64,000 nt of DNA. Origin: Solidesulfovibrio magneticus RS-1 (GTDB taxonomy: Bacteria > Desulfobacterota > Desulfovibrionia > Desulfovibrionales > Desulfovibrionaceae). The notes beneath the pieces were generated by a model that saw only the letters and a program-made list of their open reading frames with translations, was not told the origin of the DNA and searched no databases. The stretch is from assembly GCF_000010665.1 (NCBI RefSeq), contig NC_012796.1, positions 2,137,501 to 2,201,500 on the forward strand, given 5' to 3'. Position numbers and translations under genes: made by a program. Below are positions 13,894-30,979 of the stretch, one piece after another (positions within the stretch are counted from its first letter, which is position 1; the number at the start of each line of letters is the position of its first letter).

Positions 13894-14062
13894 GGGCGGC
13901 TCCTTTCCCGGATGGATAACGTAACGGGTCCACCCAAAAAACCGCAATGCCGGGCATTGTCAAGGCCGCGCTACCCTTGCCTGGGGCCGCGCCATGGCGT
14001 AGGACAAAGCCTCGGCCATTTCCCGGGCGGTTTCGTCCGGTTCGATTTCAAGGAGAATAAGA

Positions 14063-14575: not shown

Positions 14576-14683
14576 GTCCGGCGCGCGCCGCCTTGCCCCA
14601 GCCTCCGGGATGGTTATCTTGGAAGGGTAAGCAGCGGTTTTTTTTGCCGCGAGCTTCCTGATCCTTGAGCCAAGGAGGCGCGT

Positions 14684-14911: not shown

Positions 14912-14918
14912 TAACCGC

Positions 14919-14956
14919 GACGGGGGGTCTGAATCTTCAGGCCCCCCGTCTTTTTT
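14919..14956 (+). terminator. rho-independent terminator
   Basis: GACGGGGGG and CCCCCCGTC pair around a loop and are followed by six T residues, directly after the small gene ending at 14911. Confidence 0.88.
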
Positions 14957-15154
14957 GGCGACCGCCACCGCATCCCCGTTCGCCCCAACTCGGCGCGGCG
15001 GGCCGGCGGCAGCGGTTCGTTGCCCCGCACCCTCGCCTTGCGATGGTTGTCAGGGCGAAAGCGTTTTCCTATGGTGTCCCATGTTCCGTTAGGCATTCTC
15101 CGAAGCCGGACGCCCGTTGCCGGCGGGCCAAACGTCGATCCCCAAGGAGGCGCC

Positions 15155-15637
15155 ATGAATCGTCTATTCGCCCTGGCCTTGGCCGTTTTGTTGGGAACCT
15201 TGCTGGCCGCCGGACCGGCCTTGGCTCAGGAAGGCAAGGCGAAAAAGGAAAAAACCATTCCCCATCTGGTGGGCGTGTGGAAAGGCACATCGGAAGGCGT
15301 GGCCATGGGCGCGCTGGGCCATGTGGACGCCGCCGCCGCGCCGACGTTCGTGAAGGTCGATTGGACGCTGACCATCGACAAGCAGGAAGGCCGAGCCTTT
15401 TCCGGCACAAAAGCCTCGTCCCGGGCCAAGGAGACAGTAGTCGGCGTGGTGGACGGAGCCCAGGTTGCCATGGTCGACGACGACGGCACGTACGTCGGCA
15501 AGCTCACCAGTCCCAATCGGCTGATCGTCCGGTATCTCGAAGCCGGCAAGGCGTCCAAGGTGGCCAGCATCACCTTGTTCGTACGCGAGCGCGACCCGGA
15601 AGCCGGCCAGACGCCATCGGCCGCGCCGGCCCAGTAG
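15155..15637 (+). CDS. secreted protein of unknown function
   Basis: A 160-residue exported protein with signal peptide MNRLFALALAVLLGTLLAAG and cleavage near ALAQ. The mature part has the pattern LVGVWKGTSEGVAMG, then alternating hydrophobic strands (VDWTLTIDKQEGRAFSGT, VVGVVDGAQVAMVDDDGTYVGKL), suggesting a lipocalin-like beta barrel of the kind annotated as 'VWKG-type' uptake or stress proteins. This fold guess is inference only. A perfect AAGGAGG precedes the ATG. It converges on the deacetylase gene with only a 4-base gap. Confidence 0.78.
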   Translation: MNRLFALALAVLLGTLLAAGPALAQEGKAKKEKTIPHLVGVWKGTSEGVAMGALGHVDAAAAPTFVKVDWTLTIDKQEGRAFSGTKASSRAKETVVGVVDGAQVAMVDDDGTYVGKLTSPNRLIVRYLEAGKASKVASITLFVRERDPEAGQTPSAAPAQ

Positions 15638-15641
15638 CCGG

Positions 15642-16703
15642 TTATTTTTCCAGAGGCACGGATGCGGGCTGGGGCGTTGGCCTCGGCCCGCTTTTTTTGC
15701 GCGGGTGCAGTGTGCCGTCGCCAAAGATGGCATCGTACTGGGCCGTATCGCCGGGATGTCCGTCGTAGCAGTCCGAGGCGGCGATGGGCCGACCGCCGGC
15801 CAACAGTTCACTGACCGTCACCAGGGCATAGCCGCGTTTGCGCAGTTCGGCCAAAAGCGCCGGCAGGGCTTCGGCCGTGCCGTGGCCGTTGCCGTTGGCG
15901 TGGCCGATGACGATATCGCCGGGCCGCACCCGTTCCAGGGTCGTACGCAGGATGCGTTCGGGCGTGGAAAGGGGATCGGGATCGCCGGTGGTCAGGCTCC
16001 ACTGCACGGCGGCCAGGCCCAAGTCGGCCAGCAGGGCCAAAGCCTCGGGCCGGCAGCGGCCGTAGGGGAAGCGGAAGAGCGCAGGTGCTGCCGGCACGTC
16101 GTCCAGGGCCGCCTCGGGCAGGCCCCGCTCCCGGGCCAGCACGGCCAGCCTGGCCCGCAGGGCGGCATACTCGGCCTGGGTCCAGACAATCTCCCGAATC
16201 ATGTCCCGGTCGTCCAGGCGGCCAAAGTTGCCGTGAGTCCAGGCGTGGTTGCCGATCTCGAACAGAGGGTCGCTCATGAGCTGCATGGCCCGCAGCGGAT
16301 GGGAGCGCAGCCACTTGCCGCCGACGAAAAGCGTGGCCTTGGCCTTGGCGGCGCGCAGGGCGTCGATGACCCCGCCGTCGTAGCCCGAAGTCTGGTCGGC
16401 CAGTTCGCACAGGTCAAAGGTCAGCGCCAGGCGTTTTTCGCCGTGGGTGTCCACCCGGCGTAGCGACCCGCGCAGAGCCGGCGGCAGCGGCGTCAGCTCC
16501 GGGGCCACGGTGGCTTCGGGCGGCGAGCGGTCGGGTTCGTGTACCCGGCCGGACTTTTTCTCGGCCGGAGTGGACGCCAGCTCGGCCGGCGTCCACAAGG
16601 CTGCAAAAAGCGCTTCCCGGTCATGGCCGGCGGCTGTGGCGGGAAGAGCGGCGGCAAGCAGACAGGCAAGGCACAGGGCAACGGCACGGCCGAGACGTCC
16701 CAC
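15642..16703 (-). CDS. exported polysaccharide deacetylase (NodB homology)
   Basis: A 353-residue exported enzyme of carbohydrate esterase family 4, expected to remove acetyl groups from an envelope or extracellular polysaccharide. The signal peptide is residues 1-25. NodB motifs: motif 1 is LTFDLCEL, where the usual second Asp is replaced by Leu, a variant seen in this subgroup; motif 2 is HAWTHGNF (HxxxH type metal ligands); motif 3 is RFPYGRC; and DIVIGHANG supplies the late His. The start is GTG at 16703, chosen because AAGGAG lies 6 bases before it and the signal peptide starts at once; the upstream in-frame ATG would add a non-hydrophobic tail. Confidence 0.88.
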   Translation of the reverse strand: MGRLGRAVALCLACLLAAALPATAAGHDREALFAALWTPAELASTPAEKKSGRVHEPDRSPPEATVAPELTPLPPALRGSLRRVDTHGEKRLALTFDLCELADQTSGYDGGVIDALRAAKAKATLFVGGKWLRSHPLRAMQLMSDPLFEIGNHAWTHGNFGRLDDRDMIREIVWTQAEYAALRARLAVLARERGLPEAALDDVPAAPALFRFPYGRCRPEALALLADLGLAAVQWSLTTGDPDPLSTPERILRTTLERVRPGDIVIGHANGNGHGTAEALPALLAELRKRGYALVTVSELLAGGRPIAASDCYDGHPGDTAQYDAIFGDGTLHPRKKSGPRPTPQPASVPLEK

Positions 16704-16903
16704 GGCAGGCTCCTTGGCGGTTGGAAAACGGCGTGTACGGGGCAGTGGCCCGGATACGTGGCATGGCGGGTACGGCCTTGGCAAGGCCCAAGGCGGCCCA
16801 AACGCGGCGGAAGCGGAAACAGCGGCGGCTGGATACGGAAGCGTCCGGCCCCGGCCGGGATGCGACGGCCGGGACCGGACCGGAGGGCGGGGCGGTCGGC
16901 GGG

Positions 16904-17113
16904 CTAGTCGGCGACCAGCATGACGCTGGAGGCCTTGATCATGGCCTTGACGGGCTGACCCACGGCCAATCCCATGGCTTCCACGGAGTGTTTGGTGACG
17001 ACAGACACGATTTCAACGCCAGGCGCGATTTCAAGGACAACCTCGCTACTGACCATGCCGTTGCTGATGGACTTGACGGTGCCGGGGACAAGATTGCGGG
17101 CGCTGACTTTCAT
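16904..17113 (-). CDS. mop: molbindin (single TOBE/Mop domain)
   Basis: A 69-residue cytoplasmic protein with one TOBE (Mop) domain: MKVSARNLVPGTVKSISNGM, the VVLEIAPGVEIVSVVTKHSVEAMGL centre and the closing VKAMIKASSVMLVAD. Molbindins oligomerise to bind molybdate or tungstate and buffer the metal oxyanion for cofactor synthesis. The length is exactly one domain. The Shine-Dalgarno is GGAGAC. The same TOBE module occurs twice in the TunR-like regulator at 48-49 kb, and this gene may belong to that regulon, though I could not find a shared operator. Confidence 0.92.
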   Translation of the reverse strand: MKVSARNLVPGTVKSISNGMVSSEVVLEIAPGVEIVSVVTKHSVEAMGLAVGQPVKAMIKASSVMLVAD

Positions 17114-17670
17114 GCAGGTCTCCTGGTTGGATTTTATTGAGATACTTTCTCGTAACAGTTCGTTTTTATGTAGGTCAATGCTGTCAATTTATTTGTACTT
17201 ACAGTCACTGGAATTGGAAACAACATGTCGTTGCGCTGGCGAGACAGTCCTTAAGGGTCTTGCGTCCGGCTTTGGGGAACATCTCGTTGGTGTTTGAAAA
17301 ATCCTGTTATTCAAAGGTGTTGTCAGCCGTAAGGCGCAGGCCGCGACGGCCTCGCCCTGATTGGCGATGAGTACCGCCAACAAGGGCATACGGGTGGAGT
17401 AGCCGCAGCCAGCGGCTGGCGGGCGGCTCAGACGCGGCGTGACGCGTCCTGAACGATGTCTGGCGACAAGTGGCCTCATGCGCGGCAACACCGGAAAATC
17501 CAGGCTGGGGCAGCGCCTATGGCTCAGGGAAGGACATCATCAGGGTGGTCCGGGAGCGCATGATCATGGAGCGCAAAGCGGGCGGCACAGGAAAGGCCGC
17601 CGTCCGGGAGGAGTTCGGGCGGCGGCCGCAAACCGTGAGGCGAGGACGGAAACGATCTGTCGCGGCCGGT
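17114..17670. other. long intergenic interval, nothing recognised
   Basis: The first 120 bases are AT-rich and probably hold the mop promoter. The rest is GC-rich but has no supported reading frame, tRNA or repeat. Short frames here have no ribosome site and run into the dacA gene on the other strand. Confidence 0.4.
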
Positions 17671-18747
17671 CTAGCGGCTGGCCACGTGCTTGGATTTGCC
17701 GGAGGCTTTTTTCTGGGCGGTCTTGGGGGCCGGGGCCTTGTCGGCCTTGCGGGATTTCTTGACCGTGGCTTCGCGGGCGTCGAATCGGGCCGACGCGCCG
17801 CTGCGGGCGTTGACCTTGGCGTGGCGGTCGGCCTTGGCGACCTGCATGGCCTTGGCGTGGCGTTTGGCGGAGGCGCGCTTGGACAGGGACTTGGTCGGCT
17901 GCTCGGGCTCGGGCATGTCGCAGGCTGCGACCATGGTCTGCACGGCCCCGGAGAAGGAGGCGTCGAGGATGCGAACGGCTTCGCGGTTGCGCACCTGCTT
18001 GGTGCGCCCGCCGAGCACCACGGCGATGACCCGGGTGTCTCCGCGTTTGGCCGTGGCGATGATGTTGTAGCCGCTGGCGTCGACATAGCCGGTCTTGATG
18101 CCGTCCGCACCGTCGTAGGAGGCGAGCAGGCGGTTGGTGTTGCCGTGGACCGCGCCGTTGTGGTTGATCTCGGTGGTGGAGTGGTAGCGCAGGGCTTGGG
18201 GGTAGTGGCGCAGATAGCTGACGGCCAGCTTGGTGAGGTCCCGGGCGGTGGTGTACTGGCCGGCGGCGGGCAGGCCGTTGGGATTTTTAAACGTGGTGCC
18301 GGTCATGCCCAGTTCCCGGGCCTTGCGGTTCATCAGGCCCACAAAGGTGGGCACGCCGCCGAAATGTTCGGCCACGGCGATGCAGGCGTCGTTGCCCGAG
18401 GCCACGGCCATGCCGCGCATGAGCTCGTCGAGGGTGACGATTTCGCCGGCGCGAAGCCCCATGGTGGAGCCTCCGGTTCTGTCGGCGCCCCGGCTGACCT
18501 TGATACGATCAGCGAAGCTGGCCTTGCCCGAGGCCACGAGATCGAAAACCACATACATGGTCATGACCTTGGTCAGCGAAGCCGGGGGGATTGGCCGGTC
18601 GGCGTCCTGGCTGTACAGCGTCTTGCCCGAGCCGTACTCCGTGACCAGCGCGGATTTCACGGCCAGCTTGCCGGCGTTTTTAGCCGGAAAGGCCGTTCGC
18701 GGCCCGATCAGACACAGCAGGATGAGCAAGAAGAGTACGCGGCGCAT
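17671..18747 (-). CDS. D-alanyl-D-alanine carboxypeptidase with basic tail
   Basis: A 358-residue exported penicillin-binding protein (peptidase S11, DacA type) that trims the terminal D-Ala of peptidoglycan stem peptides. After a signal peptide (residues 1-22) the three active-site motifs are present: SxxK in PPASLTKVMT, SGN in VASGNDACI and KTG in DGIKTGYVDASG. The domain ends near residue 270. Beyond it is an unusual tail of about 80 residues very rich in Lys, Ala, Arg and Ser, with histone-H1-like composition, where family members normally have a beta-sheet PBP5-C domain or stop. The ATG at 18747 has GGGAGG 5 bases upstream. Confidence 0.92.
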   Translation of the reverse strand: MRRVLFLLILLCLIGPRTAFPAKNAGKLAVKSALVTEYGSGKTLYSQDADRPIPPASLTKVMTMYVVFDLVASGKASFADRIKVSRGADRTGGSTMGLRAGEIVTLDELMRGMAVASGNDACIAVAEHFGGVPTFVGLMNRKARELGMTGTTFKNPNGLPAAGQYTTARDLTKLAVSYLRHYPQALRYHSTTEINHNGAVHGNTNRLLASYDGADGIKTGYVDASGYNIIATAKRGDTRVIAVVLGGRTKQVRNREAVRILDASFSGAVQTMVAACDMPEPEQPTKSLSKRASAKRHAKAMQVAKADRHAKVNARSGASARFDAREATVKKSRKADKAPAPKTAQKKASGKSKHVASR

Positions 18748-18966
18748 GACGCCTCCCTGTTTCAATAAGTGATGTCGATGTCCCTGAAACCGTGGCTTCC
18801 CCCAGCCGTCGTCAGGGCAGCATGATCCATGCCATCAAACGCCACGCAAATGGCCGAACTGCGCCATTAAACCGGTATGTCGCTGGTTTTGCGGGAGCTT
18901 GAAAAGACGTCGCCGACAGCCTCCGGCCGGGACGTCCGAGCAGGGCGGACAATCGTTTAGGATTGT
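18748..18966. other. intergenic DNA left of the mobile element
   Basis: No gene seen. At 18952-18967 GACAATC and GATTGTC form an inverted repeat that abuts the left end of the element, and TCAAACG/CGTTTGA (18966-18982) form a second dyad overlapping the repeat end. Such nested symmetry is common at recombination sites. Confidence 0.4.
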
Positions 18967-19008
18967 CAAACGAGCCGTTTGATATTCTTAAACACTGGCG
19001 CTGGCAAG
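18967..19008 (+). repeat. left 42-bp direct repeat (attL-like)
   Basis: Identical to 26998-27039 except C/T at 18976. The uninterrupted identity is 32 bases (18977-19008). The repeat starts inside a dyad (TCAAACG agc CGTTTGA). Confidence 0.8.
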
Positions 19009-19096
19009 AACCAATAGGCGCAAGTCGCTGATTTTCTCGACTTTGAGGCAGTCCTTAGGACCGTCTGAACCCTCCGCAGAGAGCCTGTTCGTCACC

Positions 19097-19135
19097 ACTG
19101 GTACGAATTGCTGGTCCGAATCGCTGGTCCGAAAA
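19097..19135 (+). repeat. three 13-bp iterons, left arm
   Basis: Units begin at 19097, 19110 and 19123: ACTGGTACGAATT, GCTGGTCCGAATC and GCTGGTCCGAAAA. They sit 88 bases inside the left repeat and 32 bases before the integrase start. Matching units with the same period lie at the right end. Probable integrase or excisionase binding sites. Confidence 0.7.
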
Positions 19136-19316
19136 GGACGGCTACCGGGCCAGGACAGGGGGCTCCGATGGCTGGTCATGCGCCTTCATACCTTGTGTCC
19201 CGCGCTGGGACTGTTCACTTCCGTTTTTGCCTTCCTGCTGATCTCAAGCCCCGATTCAAGCGGTCCGAATTGCGAATCTCGCTCGGGACTGGACGCATGC
19301 GCGAGGCTCGGGTTAA

Positions 19317-20764
19317 CAGCGTGTTGAAAAACTCCGCCAAGTGACCGAGAATCCAGCCATCGGGGTTCCGGAGGTGATCTGATGGGGCTTGGCCGTCAGG
19401 GTGATCAGCAGGGGACGATGTATCTGGCCTGGGATGAGATCCCTCGGTCTCGTGGGCACGTTTTTTACGATCGTCTCCAGCAGATTCTCCGGAAAGCCGG
19501 CTTCGATGGTTTCGCCGAGAAGCTGTGCAAGCCCTTCTATTCCGACAAGGGGCGTCCCTCCATTCCGCCTGGCCGGTATTTTCGGATGCACCTCGTGGGG
19601 TATTTCGAGGGCATCGACAGCGAGCGCGGCATTGAGTGGCGCTGCGCTGATTCGCTTTCCCTCCGGAATTTTCTCCAGCTTTCGCCCAAGGAGTCTGTGC
19701 CGGATCATTCCTCGCTCAGCCGGACACGGTCCCGTCTGCCACTGGCGACCCACCAAGAGGTTTTCACCTGGGTTCTCAAGCTGCTCAGCAAGGATGGCTT
19801 GGTCCTTGGAGGCCGCATTGGCGTGGACGCTTCGACCATGGAGGCCAACGCGGCGCTCAAAACCATCGTGCGCCGGGACACGAGTGAGAGCTACCGCAAG
19901 ATGCTCCTGCGCATGGCCAAGGAGAGCGGCATCGACTCTCCGATAGATGAGGATCTGGCTCGCATGGACCGCAAGCGCGTCGGCAAGACGCTTTCGAACA
20001 AGGACTGGCGGTCACCGGTCGATCCCGAGGCGAAGATCGCCAAGATGAAGGATGGCCGAACGCATCTGGCGTACAAGCCCGAGCACGCGGTGGACCTGGA
20101 CACCGGCGCGGTGGTGGCGGCCGAGGTGCATGAAGCGGACAAAGGGGACACCTCGACTCTGCAAACGACGCTGAAAGCCGCTCAAGAAAGTCTGCGGCGG
20201 GTCACTTCCACACCGCCATGCCCGGACGACCCTGCGGAACTGGTCGCGGATAAAGGCTATTTCTCCCGGGATGTCCTCAAGGTTCTGGACGGTGGACCAT
20301 GGCGGACGAGAATCGCCGAACCCAAACGCAACGGTCTGAACTCCTGGCGTGGCGACCAAGAGGCGCGACGCGCCGTGTACAACAACCGAATCCGGATATC
20401 CTCGATGGTCGGGAAGGCCATGGGAAAACAGCGGACGGAACTGGTCGAAAGAAGCTTCGAGCATACGCTGGACCGGTGCGGCGGCATGCGCCGGGTCTGG
20501 CTCAGAGGACGAGAGAACATCCGGAAACGCTATCTGGTCCATGTGGCTGGTTTCAATCTCGGCCTGCTGATGCGGGTCAAGACCGGCCATGGCACCCCCA
20601 GGGGCTGGGCCAGTGCCTGGCTTGCGCTCATTTGGCCTGACCAGCATCCCTCAATGGCCTATTTGGCCATCGTCATGGTGGTCAAGGGACGATGCTGCGG
20701 GATCATCCCCATCGCCATCATCTGCGGGGGAGAATAGCCGGAAACAGCTTTTTGCAACGGCCTG
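19317..20764 (+). mobile_element. 1448-bp IS element (IS1182/IS5-like) inserted in the integrase
   Basis: The element is bounded by the 4-bp target duplication TTAA (19313-19316 and 20765-20768). Imperfect terminal inverted repeats read CAGCGTGTTGAAAAA at the left and CAGGCCGTTGCAAAA as the right-end complement. It holds one intact transposase gene. IS plus TSD is 1452 bases, a multiple of three, and excision would restore the integrase frame exactly. Confidence 0.9.
19382..20737 (+). CDS. IS transposase, DDE type
   Basis: A 451-residue transposase with an N-terminal DUF772-like domain (FYSDKGRPSIPPGRYFRMHL, YFEGIDSERGIEWRCADSL) and a C-terminal DDE domain. Catalytic candidates are Asp in GRIGVDASTMEAN, Asp in ELVADKGYFS and the later Glu in LVERSFEHTLDRCGG. 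The sequence style matches the IS1182-related group. A very strong Shine-Dalgarno (GGAGGTGAT) precedes the ATG. The frame is intact, so the element may still be mobile, in contrast to the damaged IS256 copy nearby. Confidence 0.9.
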   Translation: MGLGRQGDQQGTMYLAWDEIPRSRGHVFYDRLQQILRKAGFDGFAEKLCKPFYSDKGRPSIPPGRYFRMHLVGYFEGIDSERGIEWRCADSLSLRNFLQLSPKESVPDHSSLSRTRSRLPLATHQEVFTWVLKLLSKDGLVLGGRIGVDASTMEANAALKTIVRRDTSESYRKMLLRMAKESGIDSPIDEDLARMDRKRVGKTLSNKDWRSPVDPEAKIAKMKDGRTHLAYKPEHAVDLDTGAVVAAEVHEADKGDTSTLQTTLKAAQESLRRVTSTPPCPDDPAELVADKGYFSRDVLKVLDGGPWRTRIAEPKRNGLNSWRGDQEARRAVYNNRIRISSMVGKAMGKQRTELVERSFEHTLDRCGGMRRVWLRGRENIRKRYLVHVAGFNLGLLMRVKTGHGTPRGWASAWLALIWPDQHPSMAYLAIVMVVKGRCCGIIPIAIICGGE

Positions 20765-22269
20765 TTAAGGCCCTGGCGCTTGCTGCCGTGGTCTATTCGT
20801 TCATCAACGCCTTGAGGAGTGGGTCGATGTCCGATCTTACGAGTGAAGCCATCTCCGAGCTTGTTCGGCAGGAAATGGTCAAAGTACTTGAGGAAGACAG
20901 GAAGTCACGCATCCGTGAGCCTTGGTCCTACAAGTTCTCGGTCGATTTCCCCAAACCAGACGGCGCTTATGACGATCTCGTGCCCGTTGATGACCCCGAC
21001 AAGGCTCAGGACATGCTGGACGACTTCATCGCTGAGAAGCGGTGGGACAGGATGTCCAAGCCTGTCATGGAATTGTTGGAGAAAAACAAGCACGACGTAT
21101 CGCCGTGGGAGCCAGAATTCAGTGAGACTTGCTATCAGTACACCCAAGGGCTTGGACTCGTGTTGGACGTGATCCGGCACAGAAATGCTGGCGACATTGA
21201 GTACAATGTGGAGCCTTTCGCGCGTAGTGAGTCGGAGGTGGTGAAGGTAGCCCCTGAGAAGGAGCGCCATGGATACACAATCTCTGCACTGCTGGAGAAG
21301 TACATATCTGAGAAGGTTGCGTCTGGTGCATGGGGTGAAAGTTCTATTGTAGAAAGCACTAGGCGTGTTAGGATGCTGTTTACGCTCATGAATGACATTT
21401 TGGTTGACTCAGTTGATCACGACTTCGCTAGGACGTGTAAGGAGCGGTTGATAGAGTATAAGAGCAGGGGGAAGTCGTTGTCTGTCGTGACGGTGAATAT
21501 GAACATAAAAGCAGCGTCCAGCCTCTTCGATTGGATGGAACGTCATGGATACGTTGCTAAGAACTACTTCAAGGGAATGTTGCTTCATAGCAAGCGACGG
21601 GTTAGGGACGAGAGAGAAGCGTTCTCGTCGGAGGATATTGGTAAGATATTTAGCCCTGAACTTGGTGGTTGCTAAGAAAGTCCTTCCGTGGCGTTTTGGG
21701 GTTCCTCTGTTGGGCTTGTATACTGGCGCAAGGGTAGAAGAGATTTCTCAGCTTCACGTAGAAGATGTGAAGTCTGTGGATGGCGTTTTGGTAATAGACA
21801 TCAACGATAACGCTGAGGACAAGCGCGTCAAGACACGTGATAGCATGAGGATAGTCCCACTGCATCCTTTTTTGTTGGACGAGCTAGGTTTTCATCGGCA
21901 CGTTGAACGTGTTCAGGCGGCGGGAAGTGTTCGTATATTTCCAGAGTTGAGACAATTCAATTTGAAGTATGGTCTTTCTGTGTCAGTATGGTTCAGCAAG
22001 TACCGCAAGGAAATTGGTATCGAAGGTGCCAAGTCCTTCCATAGCTTCCGTCACACATTCACCACGAACCTGATTCACAGAGAAGTCCCCGTCCAAGTCG
22101 TGGATTGGCTCACGGGCCATGCCTCGCCAGGGGAGACGGCAGGACGGTATACCAAGTTGCCGACTGACCCGGTAGTGCTGTTGCCGCATGTGTTGAAGCT
22201 CGACTTTGGCGTCGATCTCTCTCACCTCAAGGAGTCGAAGTTTGCCGTGAAAGAGTGACGCCGAGGCCC

Positions 22270-22962
22270 ATGCTTCCCCCCAAGATCATCATCGGCAAGT
22301 CCCCTGTGTCCACCAACGCTGACGGCCTTATCAGCCTGACCGACCTGTGGAAGGCGGCGGGGAAGAATCCCTCGCAACGAATCCCCGAGTGGCTTCGTCT
22401 TCCTGCGACGAACAACTTTGTTAATCGTGTCAGCGAGAAAGAAAAGGTGGGGAAATCACACCTTTTGAAGGCTGTCCCTGGCCGTAACGGCGGAACCTTC
22501 GCCCACTGGCAGATCGCCCTGGCCTACGCCAAGTACCTGTCGCCGGAACTGCACATGGCCGTCAACGATGTGTTCATGCGGTACAAAGCCGGTGACCCGA
22601 AGCTGGCCGAGGAAGTGATCGACAAGGTCGAAGATCTGGCTGCGCTGGAACGGATCGAGCGGCGGGCACGGGCGAAAAAGCAGTACAAACGTCTGGCCAG
22701 CGTGGTCTTCGCCAAGGGTGGTCACCGCAAGACCATCGCCCATGGATTCTTTGAGAGGCGAAGCTGTTTGACTGTGACGCGCACGGATAGTGGGCTACAA
22801 CCGACATGGGGACCATATCCTCGTTCGGAGCTATGCTTTGGCTCGTTTTGCCTATTGGAAACCCCTAGGGCAAAATGGCCGGATACAAGATCAAGTCAAG
22901 GCGTCGTCTTGGCTGTCCTATGTGGATATCCTGCAGGCCGAGTCCGCCATCTCCCCTGGTAG
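22270..22962 (+). CDS. KilA-N domain protein with an altered C-terminus
   Basis: A phage-type DNA-binding protein of about 230 residues. The KilA-N domain runs from about residue 5 to 130: STNADGLISLTDLWKAAGKN, RIPEWLRLPATNNFVN, and GTFAHWQIALAYAKYLSPELHMAVNDVFMRY. KilA-N proteins are antirepressor-like factors found on phages and islands. From about residue 160 the sequence loses family character and its last 98 bases overlap the SGNH gene on the other strand, so the C-terminus is probably foreign, created by a rearrangement near 22740. It follows the integrase directly (a GTG start at 22255 would overlap the integrase stop), indicating one original operon. Confidence 0.75.
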   Translation: MLPPKIIIGKSPVSTNADGLISLTDLWKAAGKNPSQRIPEWLRLPATNNFVNRVSEKEKVGKSHLLKAVPGRNGGTFAHWQIALAYAKYLSPELHMAVNDVFMRYKAGDPKLAEEVIDKVEDLAALERIERRARAKKQYKRLASVVFAKGGHRKTIAHGFFERRSCLTVTRTDSGLQPTWGPYPRSELCFGSFCLLETPRAKWPDTRSSQGVVLAVLCGYPAGRVRHLPW

Positions 22963-24628
22963 TCACTTCGATGTCTAGTTCGTCGATAGACGTTCTCGCC
23001 GATGATACCCGCAGAAAGGCTTCCTGTTCAAAAGAGTTCCACCCGGCGGGGACTGGAGCCTTGGCTGTGGAAAAACGGGCGCTTTGCATTGGGTGGCGAA
23101 GAGTCACATCGCAGAATCCGGCCGGCTCCCCGGGGGATGCATGGGGGAAAAAGACCAATGCCGCGGCCTCGACGGGCTGCCGCAATCGTAGGTGCAACCT
23201 CGCGTGGCCTTCTCCGCCCTCTTTGGAAGTCGTGAGGTATTTAACGGTCCTGTCTGCAGCATACTCAAGGACCATGTTGCGCTGGTCTTGCTCCGAGGCC
23301 GCCACGAGCCAGTTTTCTGGAAGCACAAATCGGCCGTCGTCGTCGAAACTCAGGCTGATGGTGACGGGGTCACGGTAGCGCACGGCCTCATTGGCAGGGA
23401 GAAACACAGGGGGTTCGGCTTCGCCCTGGGCAATTCGGTCGGCAATGGCCCTGGCAATGGCGGCGTTTCCGGCTGCGCTGCAGTGCGTGTCCAACGGCTC
23501 CAGAAAAGGGTTGATTCCCTGGTCCAGGTAGAGTCTGCGAAAGGTCTCAGTCATGTCCAGGGTCTTGATGCCTCGGTTCCGGCAGTGCTCCAGGATGGCC
23601 GCGCTGGGGCCGTTCTTGTAGTCGTGCAGTTGGTCGGGGTCGGGCACGATGACGAGCAGGAAGTCCATGCCGGCGGCGGCCGCCTCCTCGCGCAACCTGT
23701 TCGCTTCATCCAGATAGCGCTGCCAGAGAGGGGCCGTGAAGGCTAGGTAGCGTTCGTCGAGAAGCTTGTCTTTGTTGCCGGCCACTCGTTTGGCCAAGCG
23801 CAATCGGTCTTGTTCCGGGGTTGAGGTCGCACTCGTCGTCGGCTTGGGCTGCAGAGGCGGTTGTGAGGTGAGAAATATGAAAACTGGGTTGGCGTGCAAG
23901 GCTTGGACAAGGGCAACATTGACGTCTTCAGCCAACAATCGGTCTTCGAGCGGGGCGAAGGGCTTACCTTTTCTGTAGTTCTGAACCTCAACGTCCGAAC
24001 GGAGCAATTCTATATCATAGATATTGAACTGGAGCACCATGAGGTCGGCCGGCATTCGGTTGGCCTTTGTCTGGAAGTAATGCAGGTTTTCGATGATGCC
24101 GATGCCCATGACCCCGGCGTTGACGACTTGGAAGCGGTTGGGCCCGGGCCAGGAATTGAGCAGCATTTGGAGTTGCGATGGAAAGGTTTGCGCGTCCGGA
24201 ACGCCAAAACCGAAGGTATAGGAGTCGCCAATGCACAGGATGCGTCTATTGGCTTGCGCCACGGGAGGAACACTATTTCGTAGCCCCTGCTTGTCCGTTG
24301 TGTAGAGAAATGGCAAGTCCGGGTGCCAACGGGCCACGGCCCGCACATCCGGCCTGAGACTGCCGGCAAGGTCGGAATAGAATTTAGGATGGGGTAGCCG
24401 GTTCAAAATGCTGGGGTCCAGGCGATAGGCCACTTCCAGGGTCAGGTAGGAAAAGAGCAAGGCAAGGAAGATCACCACTTGCCAGATATGAATTCGCCGA
24501 AACAACCGCCACCACCTCCAAATAAATGGTTCATATGCCCCCTTCGTGGTGTGGCCGCTCAACGGGCGGATGACGAAGAAGGCGTGCGTATAGTCGCTTG
24601 CCCGGTCGTTGCGTAGTAGGCAAGTCAT
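22865..24628 (-). CDS. membrane-anchored SGNH-hydrolase (AlgX/AlgJ-like)
   Basis: A 587-residue envelope protein. One membrane segment near residues 50-70 (WQVVIFLALLFSYLTLEVAY) anchors it with the catalytic domain outside. The SGNH motifs are ILCIGDSYTFGFGVPDAQ (nucleophile Ser) and the late Asp-x-His in LDTHCSAAGN. Proteins of this type often transfer or remove O-acetyl groups on exopolysaccharides and work with an MBOAT partner; a possible MBOAT remnant lies just upstream. A C-terminal beta-rich domain (residues 420-585) may bind carbohydrate. The ATG at 24628 lacks a clear Shine-Dalgarno, so the start is uncertain. Codon use is richer in AT than the core genes, consistent with being island cargo. 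Confidence 0.78.
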   Translation of the reverse strand: MTCLLRNDRASDYTHAFFVIRPLSGHTTKGAYEPFIWRWWRLFRRIHIWQVVIFLALLFSYLTLEVAYRLDPSILNRLPHPKFYSDLAGSLRPDVRAVARWHPDLPFLYTTDKQGLRNSVPPVAQANRRILCIGDSYTFGFGVPDAQTFPSQLQMLLNSWPGPNRFQVVNAGVMGIGIIENLHYFQTKANRMPADLMVLQFNIYDIELLRSDVEVQNYRKGKPFAPLEDRLLAEDVNVALVQALHANPVFIFLTSQPPLQPKPTTSATSTPEQDRLRLAKRVAGNKDKLLDERYLAFTAPLWQRYLDEANRLREEAAAAGMDFLLVIVPDPDQLHDYKNGPSAAILEHCRNRGIKTLDMTETFRRLYLDQGINPFLEPLDTHCSAAGNAAIARAIADRIAQGEAEPPVFLPANEAVRYRDPVTISLSFDDDGRFVLPENWLVAASEQDQRNMVLEYAADRTVKYLTTSKEGGEGHARLHLRLRQPVEAAALVFFPHASPGEPAGFCDVTLRHPMQSARFSTAKAPVPAGWNSFEQEAFLRVSSARTSIDELDIEVTTRGDGGLGLQDIHIGQPRRRLDLILYPAILP

Positions 24629-24655
24629 GTAGACACTCAATGACTGGCAATGAGT

Positions 24656-24900
24656 CTAGCGGAATTGATTCCGGTTTAAAAGTCTGGGTAGCTTGGCGTA
24701 CACAGATTGTTCTTGGCCGTGTGGGCAAGGAAGGCATCCCCGAGAAGCGCCAGGGTCCGTCCTACGAGTCCAAGGCTCCAAAGCCGAGACGAAGCGCCGG
24801 AAGTTGAGCCAGAGGGTGAGGAAGGAAAAGGTACTCCAGGCGTACATTTTGCCGAAACACCTTCTGATTCCAGGGGAAAATCGTGGTCGCGTCCGTCAAT
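24656..24900 (-). pseudogene. frameshifted gene remnant, possibly MBOAT acyltransferase 3' end
   Basis: Two overlapping minus-strand frames give membrane-like segments: WSTFSFLTLWLNFRRFVSAL in one and SRLWSLGLVGRTLALLGDAF in the other. Read together with one frameshift they resemble the last membrane helices of an MBOAT O-acyltransferase, the usual neighbour of AlgX/AlgJ-type genes. The fragment is cut at its 5' side by the IS256-family element at 24901. The identification is tentative and rests on position and hydrophobicity more than on conserved residues. Confidence 0.3.
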
Positions 24901-26275
24901 GTGGTGTAAATTCCGGTGTGCTTGAGGTGGCAATCGGTCAGGCTGCCCTGAGTGGAATTTGTGCTGGCTGCGCCTCGTTGGGTTGGGGGTTGAGTTCGGC
25001 CATGGCCTCGACCTGCATGTAGCGGCTTTGCAGTTGCCACTCGTCGTTTTGCTCCAGCAAAATGGCCCCGATGAGCTGGATGATGGAGGCTTCGTTGGGG
25101 AAGATGCCGACCACGTCTGCCCGTCGCTTCACTTCTTTATTCAGCCTTTCCAGCGGATTGGTGCTGTACAGCTTGACCCGGTGCTGTGCCGGGAAGGTCA
25201 TGTAGGCCAGCACGTCGTGCTCGGTTTCATCCATGAAGGTGGCGAGCTTTGGCCATTTGCCGCGAAGCTGGTCGGCGACATGCCGCAGGTCTGGCTGGCG
25301 CCTGCCGCATCCGGCTGTAAAAAGGCTTGGCGCAGGGCGGCCGAGACCATGGCGTGCTGGGACTTGGGAACCCGGACCAAAGCGTTTCGCATCCAGTGGA
25401 CCCGGCAGCGCTGCCACGTGCCCCCGAACGTCTTGGCTATGGCGGCCTTGAGGCCTTCATGGGCGTCGGAGACGACAAGCTTGACGCCACTGAGTCCCCG
25501 ACGAAGAAGGCCTTTGAGGAAAAAAGACCAGAACGGCTCGGCTTCGCTGGGGCCAATGTGCAGCCCCACGATTTCCCGGCGGCCTTCGGTGTTTGCCGCC
25601 ACGGCGATTATGGCGGCGACGCTGACCACCCGACCGCCTTGGCGCTGCTTGAGGTAGGTCGCGTTCAGCCACAAATAGGGCCATTCTCCCGTCAGCGGCC
25701 GAAAAAGAAAAGCATGGACCCGTTCATCGATGTCCTTGCACAGCTTGGACACTTGGGATTTCGAGATGCCGGAAAGGCCCATGGCTTGGACAAGATCATC
25801 CACGCGCCGCGTCGAAATGCCGCCGATCCAAGCCTCCTGGATGACGGCCACCAAGGCGCGTTCGCTGGTCTTGCGTGGCCCCAGGAAGGGCGGAAAGTAG
25901 CTGCCCTGGCGCAGCTTGGGGATGCGCAGTTGGAGAGAGCCGACGCGGGTATCAAGGCTGCGCTCCCGGTAGCCGTTACGGTAGCTGACTCGCTCGGCGC
26001 TTCGTTCGTGGCGGCTGGCCCCGATCAAGCCATCCACATCGGCTTCCATGAGAAGCTGCAAAACGGCTTCTGCTAAGGAGCGGAGAAAATCACCGCCATC
26101 GGCCTTTTGCATCAGCTCAATTAATGCCATGCTGTCCTCGGCCATCGTGGTCTCCTTTGGTTGTAGGTGCGGCTTCGCAACTTCACCTTACAGCCAATTG
26201 ACCCGATGGCCACCTCGCCCATCCCGTCCAGACTGGAGGCCGCCCCAGCCTGGACGACTCCAGAATTTACACCAC
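24901..26275. mobile_element. 1375-bp IS256-family element, inactive
   Basis: Terminal inverted repeats GTGGTGTAAATTC (24901-24913) and its complement (26263-26275) bound the element; a second shared block (GAGGTGGCAATCGG, 24924) recurs with one mismatch and one inserted base inside the right end. Flanks do not show a perfect 8-9-bp duplication. The transposase is damaged twice. Confidence 0.85.
24938..26145 (-). pseudogene. IS256-family transposase, frameshifted and with a mutated first Asp
   Basis: The N-terminal frame (26145 to about 25300) and the C-terminal frame (to 24938) join after QAFLQPDAAG with RQPDLRHVADQLRGKWP, needing one lost base restored near 25305. Restored length is 402 residues, normal for IS256. 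Family blocks are intact: VSYRNGYRERSLDTRVG, VSDAHEGLKAAI and STNPLERLNKEVKRR. The first catalytic Asp, normally in LWLDATY, is Asn here (codon AAC in LWLNATY). So both the frame and the active site are lost. The Shine-Dalgarno AAGGAG before the ATG is still present. Confidence 0.88.
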
Positions 26276-26505
26276 CTCCGTGGACTCTGCCCGTGAGCCG
26301 GGTTCTGGTCTGGGGCTTGAGTGAGGTCGAAGCCGGGAAGAAACCCAGCAGCGACAAGGACTCAGCAACTCAAGAGGAAGGTTCAAGAGTCGCTCATGAG
26401 TCGATCATTCCGCCAGAGCTTGAAGCCCGACTCCAGGCAATTGAGGAGCGTTTGGCGAAGCTGGAACCGAAAGCGAGAGGTGACATCTGTCTGGAGGCCC
26501 TGTAG
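26276..26505 (+). pseudogene. C-terminal fragment of an unknown gene beside the IS256 copy
   Basis: An open frame enters from the IS right end and ends at 26505 with a short coiled-coil-like segment (PPELEARLQAIEERLAKLEP). There is no start codon with a ribosome site outside the IS, so this looks like a gene tail cut by the insertion. The family is not recognisable. Confidence 0.35.
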
Positions 26506-26870
26506 ACGAGGCCACCAAACCCGAATTGAGCCATGCCTCTCTCGATTGCTGACCGCAGGGTCAGGAGGTGAGAGCGAAATTCCTTCCGGTTCTTCTTGAT
26601 CTCTTCTCCGCCTCCCGCCTCCTCCGACCTCCCTTTCCCTCCATCCTTCTCCATTACTCAAACGCCAATGGAGATAAATAGTGTAGTCGAGGGTAAATTC
26701 CTACTGTTTCAGTGAGATTTTGTGACAAGCCAGGGACTGAAAGGCTGGGCAGGGGCATGAGGGTGAGAATGGCGGTCAATGATTCCGACTATTTATGTCA
26801 AAAGTAGCATAGCTCAGGAGCAAGGGAGACGAAGTATTCTCGTACTCAGTCCGCCAGGGGCCAGGGGTCG

Positions 26871-26909
26871 AGTGGTACTTGTGGCTGGTCCTTCTTGTTG
26901 GTACGAAGG
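26871..26909 (+). repeat. three 13-bp iterons, right arm
   Basis: Units start at 26871, 26884 and 26897: AGTGGTACTTGTG, GCTGGTCCTTCTT and GTTGGTACGAAGG. They share TGGT(A/C)C with the left units, have the same 13-base period and orientation, and end 88 bases before the right repeat. Confidence 0.62.
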
Positions 26910-26997
26910 CAGTCATCGACAGAGGCTTCAGGTTCTCTGCTCAGACGAAAAAGTCTTTAAAGTCGAGCTGTTATCTGCGCTTGCTTTTTGGTCCCGC

Positions 26998-27039
26998 CAA
27001 ACGAGCTGTTTGATATTCTTAAACACTGGCGCTGGCAAG
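26998..27039 (+). repeat. right 42-bp direct repeat (attR-like)
   Basis: The second copy of 18967-19008, 41 of 42 bases identical. Weaker similarity continues to about 27070, where both copies read TTGATT or CTGATT followed by TCGAC. Confidence 0.8.
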
Positions 27040-27290
27040 GGGATTTGGCGCAACCCGTTGATTGTATCGACAGACCGCGGCCGCTGCGGGCGGGCGGAGC
27101 TGGACATCCCGCCTGACGTCGTGCACAGGCGTTTTTATGGCTGGGCCCTGTCTTGCAAGGATGTTACGGGGCTCAGGCCCGGCGGGGCGCACGTGGCCTT
27201 GAGGCAACGGCCAGACACCGTCAGTGGCGTCCGGGATGTTGCTTCCGGTCAGACAGCGTGCGACACTGGTTCGCAGACATGGAGAATCGC

Positions 27291-28604
27291 ATGGTCGATG
27301 ATTTGAGCCTGTCCATGAATATCCCGCCGGACACCGCGTTCGTCTGCGCGGTGGTGCAGGCGGCCAAAGCGGCGGCGGAGCGCGTGGGAATGAGCCCGCG
27401 GGAAAGCTATCGTTTCCAATTGACGGTCGAGGAGTTCAGCCTTTGTCTTATGGGCCTTGCCCAGTCCGGTGAACCGTTGCGCATCGATCTGTCGGGGAAA
27501 CGGCATCTGCTGCGCGCGGCGTTTTCGTTTACGGCCTCAAACCTGTCGTTGGGCGGACTCAACATCACGGCCTGCGCCGCGGTCCGGGCGCATGACGAAC
27601 CGTCTCGCGGCCTGGGGCTGCTGCTGGCCGCCAAGGCGGCGGACCGATTTCACGTCGAACATGTTGGCGGCGACCGCTTTCGCATCGTGGCTGAAGTGGA
27701 CAGGCGCTATCCGGAGTGGACGCCGGTCCATGCCGGCGACCAGCCGCGTCTGCCGTTGCGGCTAGCGCATGACCTCGATCCGGCTCGGCTTTCCCAGGCC
27801 GCCGCCCTGGCTGTGGGAGCCTACCCGGTCTGGCAGTGTCCTGGTGCGTTTCGCACGCCGGAACGTTTCGCGGATCTCGTTGCCGACGGACAGGTGTCTT
27901 GCGTTCGCGCCGTTGACGCCGCCGGTCAGACCGTGGGCCTGTTGACCTGGTCGCCCTGCAGCGAGCAGGCCTTGCTGTTTTCCGGGCCCTTTGTCTTCGC
28001 CCCCCGGGAAACGCGCGAAGCGGCGGCCAAACTGCTTGTCGAGGCGTTTTTGCAAGCCGTGGCTCGCCAGCGCTACGCCATTGTCCTGAGCTTTCGGGCG
28101 ACTGCCGATCTGCCGTCCGGCTATTTCGAGTCCCTGGGCAATCTCCAGGCCAGCGCCGAGGATGGCTGTCGCCAACAACCGGTCATTTTCCGGCATCTGC
28201 AGGAAGACATGGGGCAGGCCGTGTGGTGCAGTCCCCGGATCGAGGACTTTGTGCGCCAGGCCTACGACCGTCTGGCCATGGCCCGGGATCTCCTGCCCGT
28301 GGAAGAGTCGGCCGGCCGACCGAGGCGCGAATCCCTCTTGGGCACAACCCTGGACCGACCCCGCGATCTGGCCGAACTGCGCCCGTTTTTGGATGGCCAG
28401 GACATGGCCGCCAATCTGGCTGCCCATGTAGCCGCCATCCGCGACAAGGGCATTGGCCGCATCCTGTTTTACATGGACTTGGCCCGCCCCTGGGAGGCGG
28501 CCCTGGCCGGAGACCTGCTCCAGTCCGGTTTCACTCCGAAAGTCGTGCTGCCCTACGCCGGGCAGGGCGACACGGTCGTCTGGCAGCATGATCAGCCTTG
28601 TTGA
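27291..28604 (+). CDS. RsbW-like domain fused to a GNAT-type acyltransferase module
   Basis: A 437-residue protein. Residues 1-140 resemble an RsbW/HATPase domain (IPPDTAFVCAVVQAAK, YRFQLTVEEFSLCLMGL, SRGLGLLLAAKAADRF), but the N-box Asn is missing, so ATP binding is doubtful. Residues 150-437 are a GNAT-like module followed by a region with ILFYMDLARPWEAALAGDLL, GFTPKVVLPYAGQGDTVVWQ. The same closing pattern ends the ACP fusion at 36349. The ATG 27291 is chosen for GGAG six bases upstream; ATG 27279 is also in frame. Its stop lies 17 bases inside the aminotransferase gene, so the two are translationally linked. The substrate is unknown. Confidence 0.7.
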   Translation: MVDDLSLSMNIPPDTAFVCAVVQAAKAAAERVGMSPRESYRFQLTVEEFSLCLMGLAQSGEPLRIDLSGKRHLLRAAFSFTASNLSLGGLNITACAAVRAHDEPSRGLGLLLAAKAADRFHVEHVGGDRFRIVAEVDRRYPEWTPVHAGDQPRLPLRLAHDLDPARLSQAAALAVGAYPVWQCPGAFRTPERFADLVADGQVSCVRAVDAAGQTVGLLTWSPCSEQALLFSGPFVFAPRETREAAAKLLVEAFLQAVARQRYAIVLSFRATADLPSGYFESLGNLQASAEDGCRQQPVIFRHLQEDMGQAVWCSPRIEDFVRQAYDRLAMARDLLPVEESAGRPRRESLLGTTLDRPRDLAELRPFLDGQDMAANLAAHVAAIRDKGIGRILFYMDLARPWEAALAGDLLQSGFTPKVVLPYAGQGDTVVWQHDQPC

Positions 28605-29697
28605 CCGCGTGCCGGACTATGTCCGGTCTTTCGAGCGCTATGTCCCAAGCCGCCCCGATACGGCGCTCATGCGCCAGTACGGGGTGTCGCACCTGCATCG
28701 CCTCAACAACAACGAAAATCCCCTGGGGCCGCCGGCCTTGGCCTGCGAAGCCATCGCCGCCTTCGCTCCGGAGCGGGCCGCCGTCTATCCCAGCGGCGAC
28801 GCCTACGGCCTGCGGGAGACCTTGGCGGCGCGATTTGGCAAATCCCCCGAGCAATTCCTGGTCGGCAACGGCTCCTGCGAGGTCATCAGTTCCGTGATCC
28901 GGGCTTTTTGCGGGCCCGGCGACGCCGTGGTCACCGCCGACAAAACCTTTGCCGTCTACGAATGGGTGGCCCGTTTTTCGGGCATCGAGGCCCGCCTTGT
29001 TCCCCTTGTTGGCCAGGCTTACAACCCGGCCGGGCTGCTGGCCGCCGTCACGGACAACACCAAGATCGTCTTTGTCTGCAACCCCAACAATCCCACCGGC
29101 GATTGGTGGAACCGGGCCGTGCTGGAGCGGTTTCTGGCCGCACTGGGCGGCCGGGCCTTGGTGGTTCTCGACGAAGCCTACTGCGAATACCTGGACGATC
29201 CCGACTATCCCGACGGCATGGAAGTCCTGGAGCGCCACGACAATGTTTTGGTTTTTCGCACCTTCTCCAAGATGTACGGCCTGGCCGGATTCCGGGTGGG
29301 CTATCTGTGCGGTTCCCGGGAGGCGGTGGACTACGTGCGGCGCACCCACATAGCCTATTCGGTCAACGCCCTGGGCCAGATCGCGGCCACGGCGGCCCTG
29401 GCCGACGACGCCGGCCATATCGCCGACACCCGGCGCATGGTGGCCGAGGCCAGGGGGTATCTGCACGATCTCTTTGACGCCATGGGGCTGGAATACGTCA
29501 GCGGGGCCGGCAATTTCATCATGGTCGCCGCCCCCGTCTCCGATACCCTGCTCTACCGGCGACTCATGCGCGAGGGCGTCATGGTGCGCACCATGACGGG
29601 CTTTCGCTACCCCAACTGGATTCGTGTCACCCTGGCGCGCGAACCGGCCATGGAGGCCTTTGCCAAGGCTTTTCGCAAGGTACTGGCTATCCCGTGA
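28588..29697 (+). CDS. HisC-like PLP-dependent aminotransferase
   Basis: A 369-residue fold-type I aminotransferase of the histidinol-phosphate/aromatic aminotransferase family. Conserved features are LNNNENPLGPP at the N-terminus, NPNNPTG for cofactor phosphate and ring contacts, VVLDEAYCEY with the Asp that holds the pyridine nitrogen, and TFSKMYGLAGFRVGY with the Schiff-base Lys228, plus the late RxT stretch WIRVTLAR. It is not next to other his genes; its partners are a GNAT protein, a transporter and an aryl-CoA ligase, so its substrate is probably a pathway-specific keto or amino acid rather than histidinol phosphate. It overlaps the genes on both sides (17 bases and 4 bases), forming a tight three-gene operon. 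Confidence 0.88.
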   Translation: MISLVDRVPDYVRSFERYVPSRPDTALMRQYGVSHLHRLNNNENPLGPPALACEAIAAFAPERAAVYPSGDAYGLRETLAARFGKSPEQFLVGNGSCEVISSVIRAFCGPGDAVVTADKTFAVYEWVARFSGIEARLVPLVGQAYNPAGLLAAVTDNTKIVFVCNPNNPTGDWWNRAVLERFLAALGGRALVVLDEAYCEYLDDPDYPDGMEVLERHDNVLVFRTFSKMYGLAGFRVGYLCGSREAVDYVRRTHIAYSVNALGQIAATAALADDAGHIADTRRMVAEARGYLHDLFDAMGLEYVSGAGNFIMVAAPVSDTLLYRRLMREGVMVRTMTGFRYPNWIRVTLAREPAMEAFAKAFRKVLAIP

Positions 29698-30908
29698 ACG
29701 ACCGCGCCGTATCCCGGCCCGAGCGGCTTTTCAGCTACGACTTCATCGTGCTGACCCTGGCGGCCGCCTTCGGGTTTTGCAACATCGCCGTCTTTTACGG
29801 CTTCAGCGCCTATCTGGGCCGCCTGGGAGTGGACCCGGCCTGGTGGGGGCCGCTGCTGGCCGCCGAACCCCTGGCCGCTTTTTGCCTGCGGCCATTTTTG
29901 AGCCTGCTGGTCACGCCGCAAAACGCCCTGTCCATCGCCAGGTGGTCCCTGGTCGGCCTGGGGGCGGCCCTTGGCGGATATCCCCTGGTCCACGGCGTCG
30001 CGCTGCTCGCGGTTGTCCGGCTCTGTCACGGCGTGGCCTTCGTGTGTCTGGTCAGCGCCGTCACGGCGCTGCTCGCCCAGGCCATCCCCAAGAGCCTCGC
30101 CGGCCGGGCGTTCGGTTATTTTTCCCTTTCGGCCCTGGTGCCTTATGCCGTCATGCCGCCCCTGGCCGAGGGGCTGCTGCCGCTTTTGGGACGCGAGGAT
30201 CGGGTGTACGCGTGTTGCGCGGTTTTTGTGTTGCCGGCCCTGGCGTTGCTGGCCCCCCTTGAGCGGCGTCTTGGGCGGCGGGCCATGGCCGAGGTCGCGG
30301 GGACGAGCCGGCCGACGCTAGGGCAGATGCGCCAAACCCTGGCTCAGCCGTCGGTGCGCTTGGTGCTTGCTGCCAATTTGTGCCTGTTTTTGAGCACCAC
30401 CTTGATTTTCTTTTTCATCAAGCCCTTTGCCTCGGGCCTTGGGCTGGCCGATCCGGGCTTGTTTTTCACGGTCTCCACGGCCGCTTCCATCGCCGTCCGG
30501 GTGCTGGCCGGGGCGGCCTACGACAAACTGCCCCGGGAAACGCTGCTTGTTGCCGCGCTGCTCGCTCTGGCCGGCTGTATCGCCGGTTTTGCCGACACAA
30601 GCGGCCAGGGCCGGCTCCTGGCCCTGGCCGCCGGCTACGGCCTGTGCCTGGGCGTGGCCATGCCCCTTGCCAACGCCATCATGTTCGGCTTGTCCAAGCC
30701 GGCCATGCGCGCAACCAACTTGAACCTGATGCTGTTCATGATGGACACGGCTTACGTGTTCGGCCCCTTGGCAGGCGGCGCGCTGCTGGCGACCGGGGCC
30801 GGCTATCCGACGCTGTTTCTTATCGCCGCCGGCTGCGCCCTGGCCGCCGGGCTGCTTATGGCCCCTCTGGCCGTCGTCGGCTGGCGCGCCTTGGGAAAAG
30901 TGCGATAG
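29694..30908 (+). CDS. MFS transporter
   Basis: A 404-residue inner-membrane protein with about 12 hydrophobic segments, typical of the major facilitator superfamily. GTG is the start and overlaps the aminotransferase stop (GTGA). The first helix contains FGFCNIAVFYGFSAYLGRLG, the cytoplasmic loop reads SLAGRAFGYFSLS and the second half repeats the pattern (AIMFGLSKPAMRATNLNL). The subgroup resembles small-solute/drug exporters rather than sugar symporters. As the last gene of the operon it is a good candidate to export the pathway product or import its precursor. Confidence 0.85.
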   Translation: MNDRAVSRPERLFSYDFIVLTLAAAFGFCNIAVFYGFSAYLGRLGVDPAWWGPLLAAEPLAAFCLRPFLSLLVTPQNALSIARWSLVGLGAALGGYPLVHGVALLAVVRLCHGVAFVCLVSAVTALLAQAIPKSLAGRAFGYFSLSALVPYAVMPPLAEGLLPLLGREDRVYACCAVFVLPALALLAPLERRLGRRAMAEVAGTSRPTLGQMRQTLAQPSVRLVLAANLCLFLSTTLIFFFIKPFASGLGLADPGLFFTVSTAASIAVRVLAGAAYDKLPRETLLVAALLALAGCIAGFADTSGQGRLLALAAGYGLCLGVAMPLANAIMFGLSKPAMRATNLNLMLFMMDTAYVFGPLAGGALLATGAGYPTLFLIAAGCALAAGLLMAPLAVVGWRALGKVR

Positions 30909-30979
30909 TGCTTTATGAAGCAGGATAAATTTAGCCTAGTGACGGCAAAGTGCCCTCGGCGGCTTTTCAAGATGCGGCG

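Follow-up and report, generated by a model that had tools for sequence, protein, structure and literature searches.

An 18.9-kb insertion at the 3' end of a protein-coding gene in Solidesulfovibrio magneticus RS-1 and the case for its tandem accretion

In tandem accretion, as set out in the consulted parts of a review, an integrated element decays to a cis-mobilizable element (CIME), and an incoming element integrates in an attachment (att) site, with gene ends serving as targets (PMC5704250). For the island PAISt of Streptomyces turgidiscabies, the partial text of the report describes two modules bounded by three copies of the 3' end of the bacA gene (PMC4057263). We analysed a 64,000-nucleotide stretch of the Solidesulfovibrio magneticus RS-1 genome (NC_012796.1, positions 2,137,501 to 2,201,500; the window), which contains an insertion of about 18.9 kb at the 3' end of a gene coding for a 416-aa protein. 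The insertion can be read as three att-like sites alternating with two modules, in the order L(attL)-E1-M(attI)-E2-R(attR)-gene. This arrangement best fits tandem accretion in the style of integrative and conjugative elements (ICEs) and CIMEs, and the RS-1 island is a new example of a kind already known.

As far as the consulted parts of these accounts go, the island resembles ICE-CIME accretions in having the attL-element-attI-element-attR order, a tyrosine integrase, a decayed member, and a site at a gene end (PMC5704250). It is unlike them in that no conjugation or mobilisation genes were recognised among the open reading frames (ORFs) examined, and the former integrase of E2 is not seen. 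PAISt, likened here by description, also has the 3' end of a protein gene three times (attL, attI, and attR) and two modules, but it is 674 kb rather than 18.9 kb long and has an active integrase and an 8-bp palindromic core (PMC4057263). The Islander survey of tRNA and tmRNA targets, in the part of the report seen, credits Desulfovibrio magneticus RS-1 with the most islands of any genome, 19 (PMC4383910); an island such as the present one, whose target is a protein gene, would be missed by tRNA-based island finders. In the literature searched on RS-1 islands, integrases, and insertion sequences (ISs), no account of the 18.9-kb island was found, and a literature search for DUF6538 integrases found nothing. 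The locus shows a probable route by which a block of metabolic genes joined the genome of a sulfate-reducing bacterium known for its magnetic crystals, and its analysis corrects a natural error, in which an obvious pair of repeats is taken for the limits of an insertion.

Limits of the insertion and its three sites

The region was compared among 14 genomes of the genus, RS-1 included (genomes are cited below by G numbers). The gene on the left flank, which codes for an S11 D-Ala-D-Ala carboxypeptidase (17671-18765, minus strand; Pfam PF00768), is present in all 14 genomes. The gene on the right flank, the 416-aa target gene (37872-39122, minus strand), was scored at E<=1e-20 and is present in 10 of the 14, or nine of the 13 others, which leaves G152, G167, G174, and G181 uninformative on the site; the family of its product was not recognised, with no match in NCBIfam, Pfam, PHROG, or PDB sequences. 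The distance between the two genes is 237-253 bp in all nine informative relatives, versus 19,109 bp in RS-1. When the relatives' loci were compared with the window by BLAST, left homology stopped at or before 19038 and right homology began at 37871-37913, while some loci also matched M, as expected for a repeat. G025, the closest relative, matches the window at 9298-16815 (93.8%), 17584-19038 (95.5%), 37900-39953 (89.6%), and 41388-50268 (94.7%), with no match of at least 60 bp from 19039-37899. Since nine of nine relatives join the S11 gene directly to the 416-aa gene, we conclude that the insertion in RS-1 spans about 19,039-37,900, or approximately 18.86 kb.

These limits differ from those of an earlier, sequence-only reading of the same DNA, which had proposed an 8.1-kb integrative element bounded by a 42-bp direct repeat and lying next to a metabolic cluster. 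The empty site foreseen by that reading, with a single-copy attB joining 18.97 to 27.04 kb, was looked for and is rejected: all nine relatives join 19.04 to 37.9 kb, and the metabolic cluster, which had been taken for a neighbour, lies within the insertion that these relatives lack. The empty site in the relatives is thus one for E1 and E2 jointly. It occurs once per locus in nine of nine relatives. A genome-wide repeat search of the relatives, with the best four candidates per genome scored, found the site once in four of the nine; it missed G025, G133, G097, G080, and G058, whose loci hold the site, and is not a complete census.

The repeat pair itself is real. Its copies, at 18967-19008 and 26998-27039, are identical at 41 of 42 positions with a spacing of 8031, and form the sole direct-repeat family in 18000-28500 (minimum length 20, seed 12); the next best ungapped 42-mer match in the window is 24/42 forward and 25/42 reverse. 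A length of 42 bp proved too short a description: in a whole-genome search with a 95-nt query, the similarity is longer and more graded, extending to ca. 74 nt at 84%. The left copy begins site L (18967-19038), whose similarity to the relatives' site reaches 19038 in the closest ones and which, over 74 nt, is 95% identical to the end of the 416-aa gene in G109 and 91% in G160. What had been called attL is, to judge from these alignments, the 3' end that the 416-aa gene originally had, now displaced and comprising the last ca. 16 codons, the stop codon, and a dyad.

The 39-nt dyad (18955-18993) stands directly 3' of the original stop codon, in a stretch conserved in nine relatives (24 of 51 aligned columns invariant), and overlaps the left repeat copy in part. 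Its 18-nt arms, 18955-18972 and 18976-18993, are 83% complementary and are surrounded by smaller dyads, so the nesting of the left core in dyads had been seen correctly. A search of 37840-37930 showed no comparable dyad where the 416-aa gene now ends. The conserved dyad could serve as an operator or form a hairpin in RNA.

Site M (26998-27069), an internal, attI-like site at the E1/E2 boundary, matches L at 41 of 42 positions and then diverges; for 30 nt after the 42 bp, it resembles the G109 gene end (0 of 5000 shuffles as good). Site R (37872-37921, minus strand), attR-like, is the present 3' end of the 416-aa gene, and resembles the G109 gene end over the same 30-nt stretch, again with 0 of 5000 shuffles as good. 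By its sequence, this gene end represents the site a third time, in diverged form. The C-terminus of the protein has changed (...EYLEKIGALRRLALPDDGV in RS-1 versus ...EYLEKINALRRLVLASASV in G109, of equal length), with gene length, frame, and stop position kept; G160 has ...VLARISV and G025 ...VLARVSV, and V is terminal in all nine relatives. Compared with its G025 counterpart, the gene is 70% identical in its final 50 nt and 88% identical in the 50 nt adjoining these. Such a change is what integration with 3'-end replacement would leave, and ordinary divergence could also explain it; the integration reading is favoured because a closely matching version of the end stands 18.9 kb away, at L.

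Common to L, M, and R is GGCGCAA followed by an arm with GATT; in the closest relative, the left-hand and right-hand stretches of homology overlap (19016-19038 / 37900-37921). GGCGCAA would suit a 7-bp overlap, although the crossover could also lie in GATTTTCTC, common to L and R. A tRNA as target is rejected, since ARAGORN finds none in the window.

Contents and relatives of the two modules

Module E1 (19,039-26,997) contains the genes that had been noted in the earlier reading, namely an integrase catalytic domain, a KilA-N gene, an SGNH gene, and IS elements, but the integrase is not one open gene. Its first piece (19168-19316, plus strand) carries a DUF6538 domain (PF20172, 1.6e-10, query 19168-19326) and is followed by an IS1182-type element (19317-20764, plus strand) with TTAA on both sides and a transposase ORF at 19382-20737, whose NCBIfam score as an IS1182-type DDE transposase is under the cut-off. 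The middle piece (20830-21675, plus strand), which ends at a stop codon, matches a PHROG integrase (1.1e-7) and nothing in Pfam, and the catalytic piece (21677-22258, plus strand) lies in another frame (PF00589 on the ORF 21545-22258). Identity to the integrase of G133 is 79% for the first piece, 55% for the middle, and 73% for the catalytic piece. The E1 integrase is therefore a pseudogene, broken by the IS1182 element and a change of frame, and because it is broken twice, E1 is not expected to move without the help of another integrase in trans. Elsewhere in the RS-1 genome there are two further integrase matches, of 39-40% identity.

The integrase pseudogene is followed by the KilA-N domain gene (22255-22962, plus strand; PF04383 7e-17; PHROG transcriptional regulator 4e-32) and, as E1 cargo, an AlgX-like SGNH/GDSL ORF (22865-24640, minus strand), with a weak match to PF13472 (5.7e-8, 33.9 bits against a cut-off of 32.9). 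An IS256-type (Mutator) element with inverted ends occupies 24903-26273 on the minus strand. Its transposase, like the integrase, is split into two overlapping frames (24938-25417 and 25198-26145); we read both splits as decay, a sequencing error being possible. The right part of the E1 backbone (26292-26838) is 88% and 79% identical, in two blocks, to contig C110 of G174. No relaxase or conjugation genes turned up in a Pfam scan of ten ORFs (eight in E1), with no dedicated relaxase search made, and in a PHROG scan of seven ORFs (six in E1) matches were limited to the KilA-N ORF and the pieces of the integrase. A viral or plasmid source of E1 is unsupported: neither the catalytic piece nor a 35-nt exact repeat pattern had a match in IMG/VR, a phage collection, with 20700-22960 as the sole query, yielded a single 53-nt KilA-N match, and the 12 records of a plasmid collection that matched the query 18900-27200 did so in IS stretches.

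The E1 backbone matches G133, G143, and G174. The DUF6538-integrase/KilA-N elements of Solidesulfovibrio share with E1 the integrase family (G133 and G143) and the KilA-N gene; in G133 and G143, the integrase is a single open frame (567 and 578 aa, respectively) that carries both a DUF6538 and a phage-integrase domain. More remote relatives of the E1 catalytic piece are common, occurring in 68 of 199 family genomes, RS-1 included, at E<=1e-15, and a scan of named genomes with the same piece gave one relative, Desulfovibrio sp. DV (G143). The G133 element, flanked by two copies of CCCCCCTTCGGCACCA 8.9 kb apart, is similar in size to E1. Homology starts 60 bp inside the left site in RS-1 and 97 bp inside it in G133, and stops ca. 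160 bp before the right end in RS-1 and ca. 200 bp before it in G174. The ends differ, being tRNA-Leu (G133 and G143) or another tRNA-like sequence (G174) versus the 3' end of a protein gene for E1. CCCCCCTTCGGCACCA is the 3' end of a tRNA-Leu of G143, ARAGORN finding no whole tRNA in the fetched G133 locus; in G174, a tRNA-like 3' end was placed by reading ca. 200 bp beyond the shared sequence, with no tRNA called by ARAGORN. The G143 locus (1-15250) has a whole tRNA-Leu(gag), after which come, in this order, an element that carries an integrase (Arm-DNA-bind_3) and a Toprim/AAA gene of its own and on reading appears P4-like, a partial tRNA-Leu copy without one base, and an E1-like DUF6538 integrase. 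On this reading, G143 would hold a tandem array at a tRNA in the same genus and offer a precedent for accretion.

Given these relatives of its integrase and KilA-N gene, and an integrase placed just inside the left repeat copy, E1 looks genuine and is probably an integrative element, as had been proposed, within an insertion whose full extent is 18.9 kb. That L and M bound E1 as a unit has to be inferred, because no genome with E1 alone at the site was found.

Module E2 (ca. 27,070-37,870) is the metabolic cluster. It begins with a gene with a weak HATPase_c_2 match, under the Pfam cut-off (27291-28604, plus strand), followed on the same strand by a HisC-like aminotransferase (28453-29697; TIGR01141, PF00155) and an MFS transporter (29694-30908; PF07690). 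Two ORFs on the minus strand code for the FAD-binding subunit of a molybdenum hydroxylase (30980-32353; PF00941 and PF03450, domains C-terminal) and a molybdenum-binding subunit of the xanthine-dehydrogenase type (32289-34991; PF02738, PF20256, PF01315). A benzoate-CoA-ligase-family AMP ligase (34841-36328, plus strand; TIGR02262, PF00501) and an ORF with an acyl-carrier (PP-binding) domain (36049-37638, plus strand; PF00550) complete the set. RS-1 is colinear with G152 at 27278-34572 (82.5%) and 34770-37625 (80.3%). At the margins, 27064-27268 has one short match (G044), and 37626-37871 has no convincing relative among 199 genomes with the best three candidates per genome scored: 12, RS-1 included, match at E<=0.01, the other 11 over only 20-30 nt.

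Judged by the aminotransferase at E<=1e-60, an E2-type cluster, whole or in part, is present in 11 of the 13 other genus genomes, and its surroundings vary among the loci compared; RS-1 itself has one match at this threshold (best nine of 24 candidates scored). When the G025 and G152 loci were each used as queries against 11 other loci, with the G174 contig in this comparison being only 4.6 kb, matches of at least 200 bp were confined to 2874-11943 of the 19,901-base G025 locus and to 7810-18136 of the G152 locus. Such matches stay inside the cluster, and therefore the cluster is shared and its flanks are not. RS-1 retains DNA from one side of the G025 cluster locus near 1.02-1.03 Mb.

Trees (LG+G4, a non-mixture model) were built for the 12 genus genomes, RS-1 included, that have both the S11 and aminotransferase proteins; G160 and G167, whose aminotransferase was unmatched at 1e-60, and G088, of another genus, were left out. 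The S11 tree groups RS-1 with G025 and G109 (100/99) and rejects RS-1+G152+G174 (p 1.3e-10), while the aminotransferase tree rejects RS-1+G025+G109 (p 1.9e-9) and places RS-1 with G152 and G174 (91/95, not starred). Because the trees conflict, we conclude that at least the aminotransferase part of E2 was acquired horizontally, with the source probably on the G152/G174 side of the genus. The pairing of G025 with G133 in the aminotransferase tree (100/99), at odds with the S11 topology, suggests that there were other transfers as well.

Assembly of the island

We consider it probable, with moderate confidence, that 19,039-~37,900 is a composite island in which two foreign pieces were stacked site-specifically at the 3' end of the 416-aa gene. 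Two modules that differ in origin stand at one target, and both are absent from the relatives; of the three att-like sites there, L and M are strong, and R, the gene's own end, is partly similar. E2 would have arrived first, giving L'-E2-R, and would have been a CIME-like passenger next to the gene, carrying metabolic cargo, with its integrase absent or lost. E1, with its DUF6538 integrase and KilA-N gene, would then have integrated at L', the attachment site at the end of E2 away from the gene, to give L-E1-M-E2-R, so that the left of M would be the gene end as carried by E1 and the right of M the arm of E2. That an integrase acted each time, which module came first, and where the crossover lies are presumed here.

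Several points weigh against this reading. No integrase was recognised among the E2 ORFs examined (NCBIfam, Pfam), and we infer the integration of E2 as an element only from M and R. M departs from L after 42 bp with a 1-nt indel, R is only weakly similar farther left than the last codons (with 11 of 5000 shuffles doing as well), and its similarity to L would be expected in any case, since R is the end of the gene itself. Any placement of the crossover is tentative, because three neighbouring bases right of GGCGCAA differ between R and the closest relatives, and only the three closest of nine relatives keep GGCGCAA. Neither E1 alone nor E2 alone was found at the site in any genome. The last block shared by E1 and G133 ends 3.3 kb before the right G133 repeat, so only G174, which has no integrase match, supports the right end of E1. 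The nearest integrases (73-75% in the catalytic part) adjoin tRNA-Leu 3'-end sequence, not the RS-1 site, and on reading appear to face their target the opposite way.

Alternatively, a composite of E1 and E2, with M already inside it, could have been assembled in a donor Solidesulfovibrio and inserted between L and R in a single step. Relatives of both modules do occur in the same group, E2 in G152 and G174 (80-83%) and the right part of E1 in G174 (88%), but we consider a single event unlikely: M matches RS-1's own L at 41 of 42 positions, the GC content of the modules differs sharply (0.553 for E1 without its IS elements versus 0.667 for E2, the flanks being at 0.66), and G174 has its E1-like DNA (C110) and its E2 cluster (C214) on separate contigs, though in an assembly of 450 contigs. 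It is likewise rather improbable that E1 is the only integrase element, with E2 and the altered gene end brought in from another strain by homologous or illegitimate recombination. This would agree with the lack of a recognised integrase in E2 and with the varied surroundings of its cluster, which point to movement by another route as well. Against it, the breaks at both ends coincide with the site, and no imported stretch stands out past the last ca. 16 codons, the body of the 416-aa gene being 88.3-92.0% identical to the three nearest relatives, which are 90.6-92.0% identical among themselves.

It is very improbable that the 42 bp are a dispersed repeat of the ordinary kind, or a regulatory dyad present in several copies, and unconnected with an element. 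The 42 bp do include part of the dyad conserved after the gene in nine relatives, but a common dispersed repeat at unrelated loci was checked for and is rejected. In the whole genome (5,315,620 bases in three contigs, of which the window's contig, C2, has 5,248,049), the 95-nt query gave eight matches, namely itself, the second copy, and six of 14-19 nt (E 0.8 or worse), so that only two repeat copies were found in 5.3 Mb; a pattern search found the exact dyad pattern once. Strong matches in relatives (four genomes) are all at the same locus, the other three matches being of 19-23 nt.

Going beyond tandem accretion at this one site, the E2-type cluster may roam the genus as a passenger, with E1-family integrases of switched target accreting it and moving it in cis; jointly with this, the E1 family would have switched its target from a tRNA-Leu sequence (G133 and G143) to a protein gene (RS-1). 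We regard this joint proposal as speculative and doubtful. If it is true, an entire metabolic unit moves to new loci and new hosts although it carries no mobility genes.

Beyond the right end of the island, ca. 1.4 kb of RS-1 DNA (39953-41388) is absent from G025 and G160, which marks a second small insertion or deletion.

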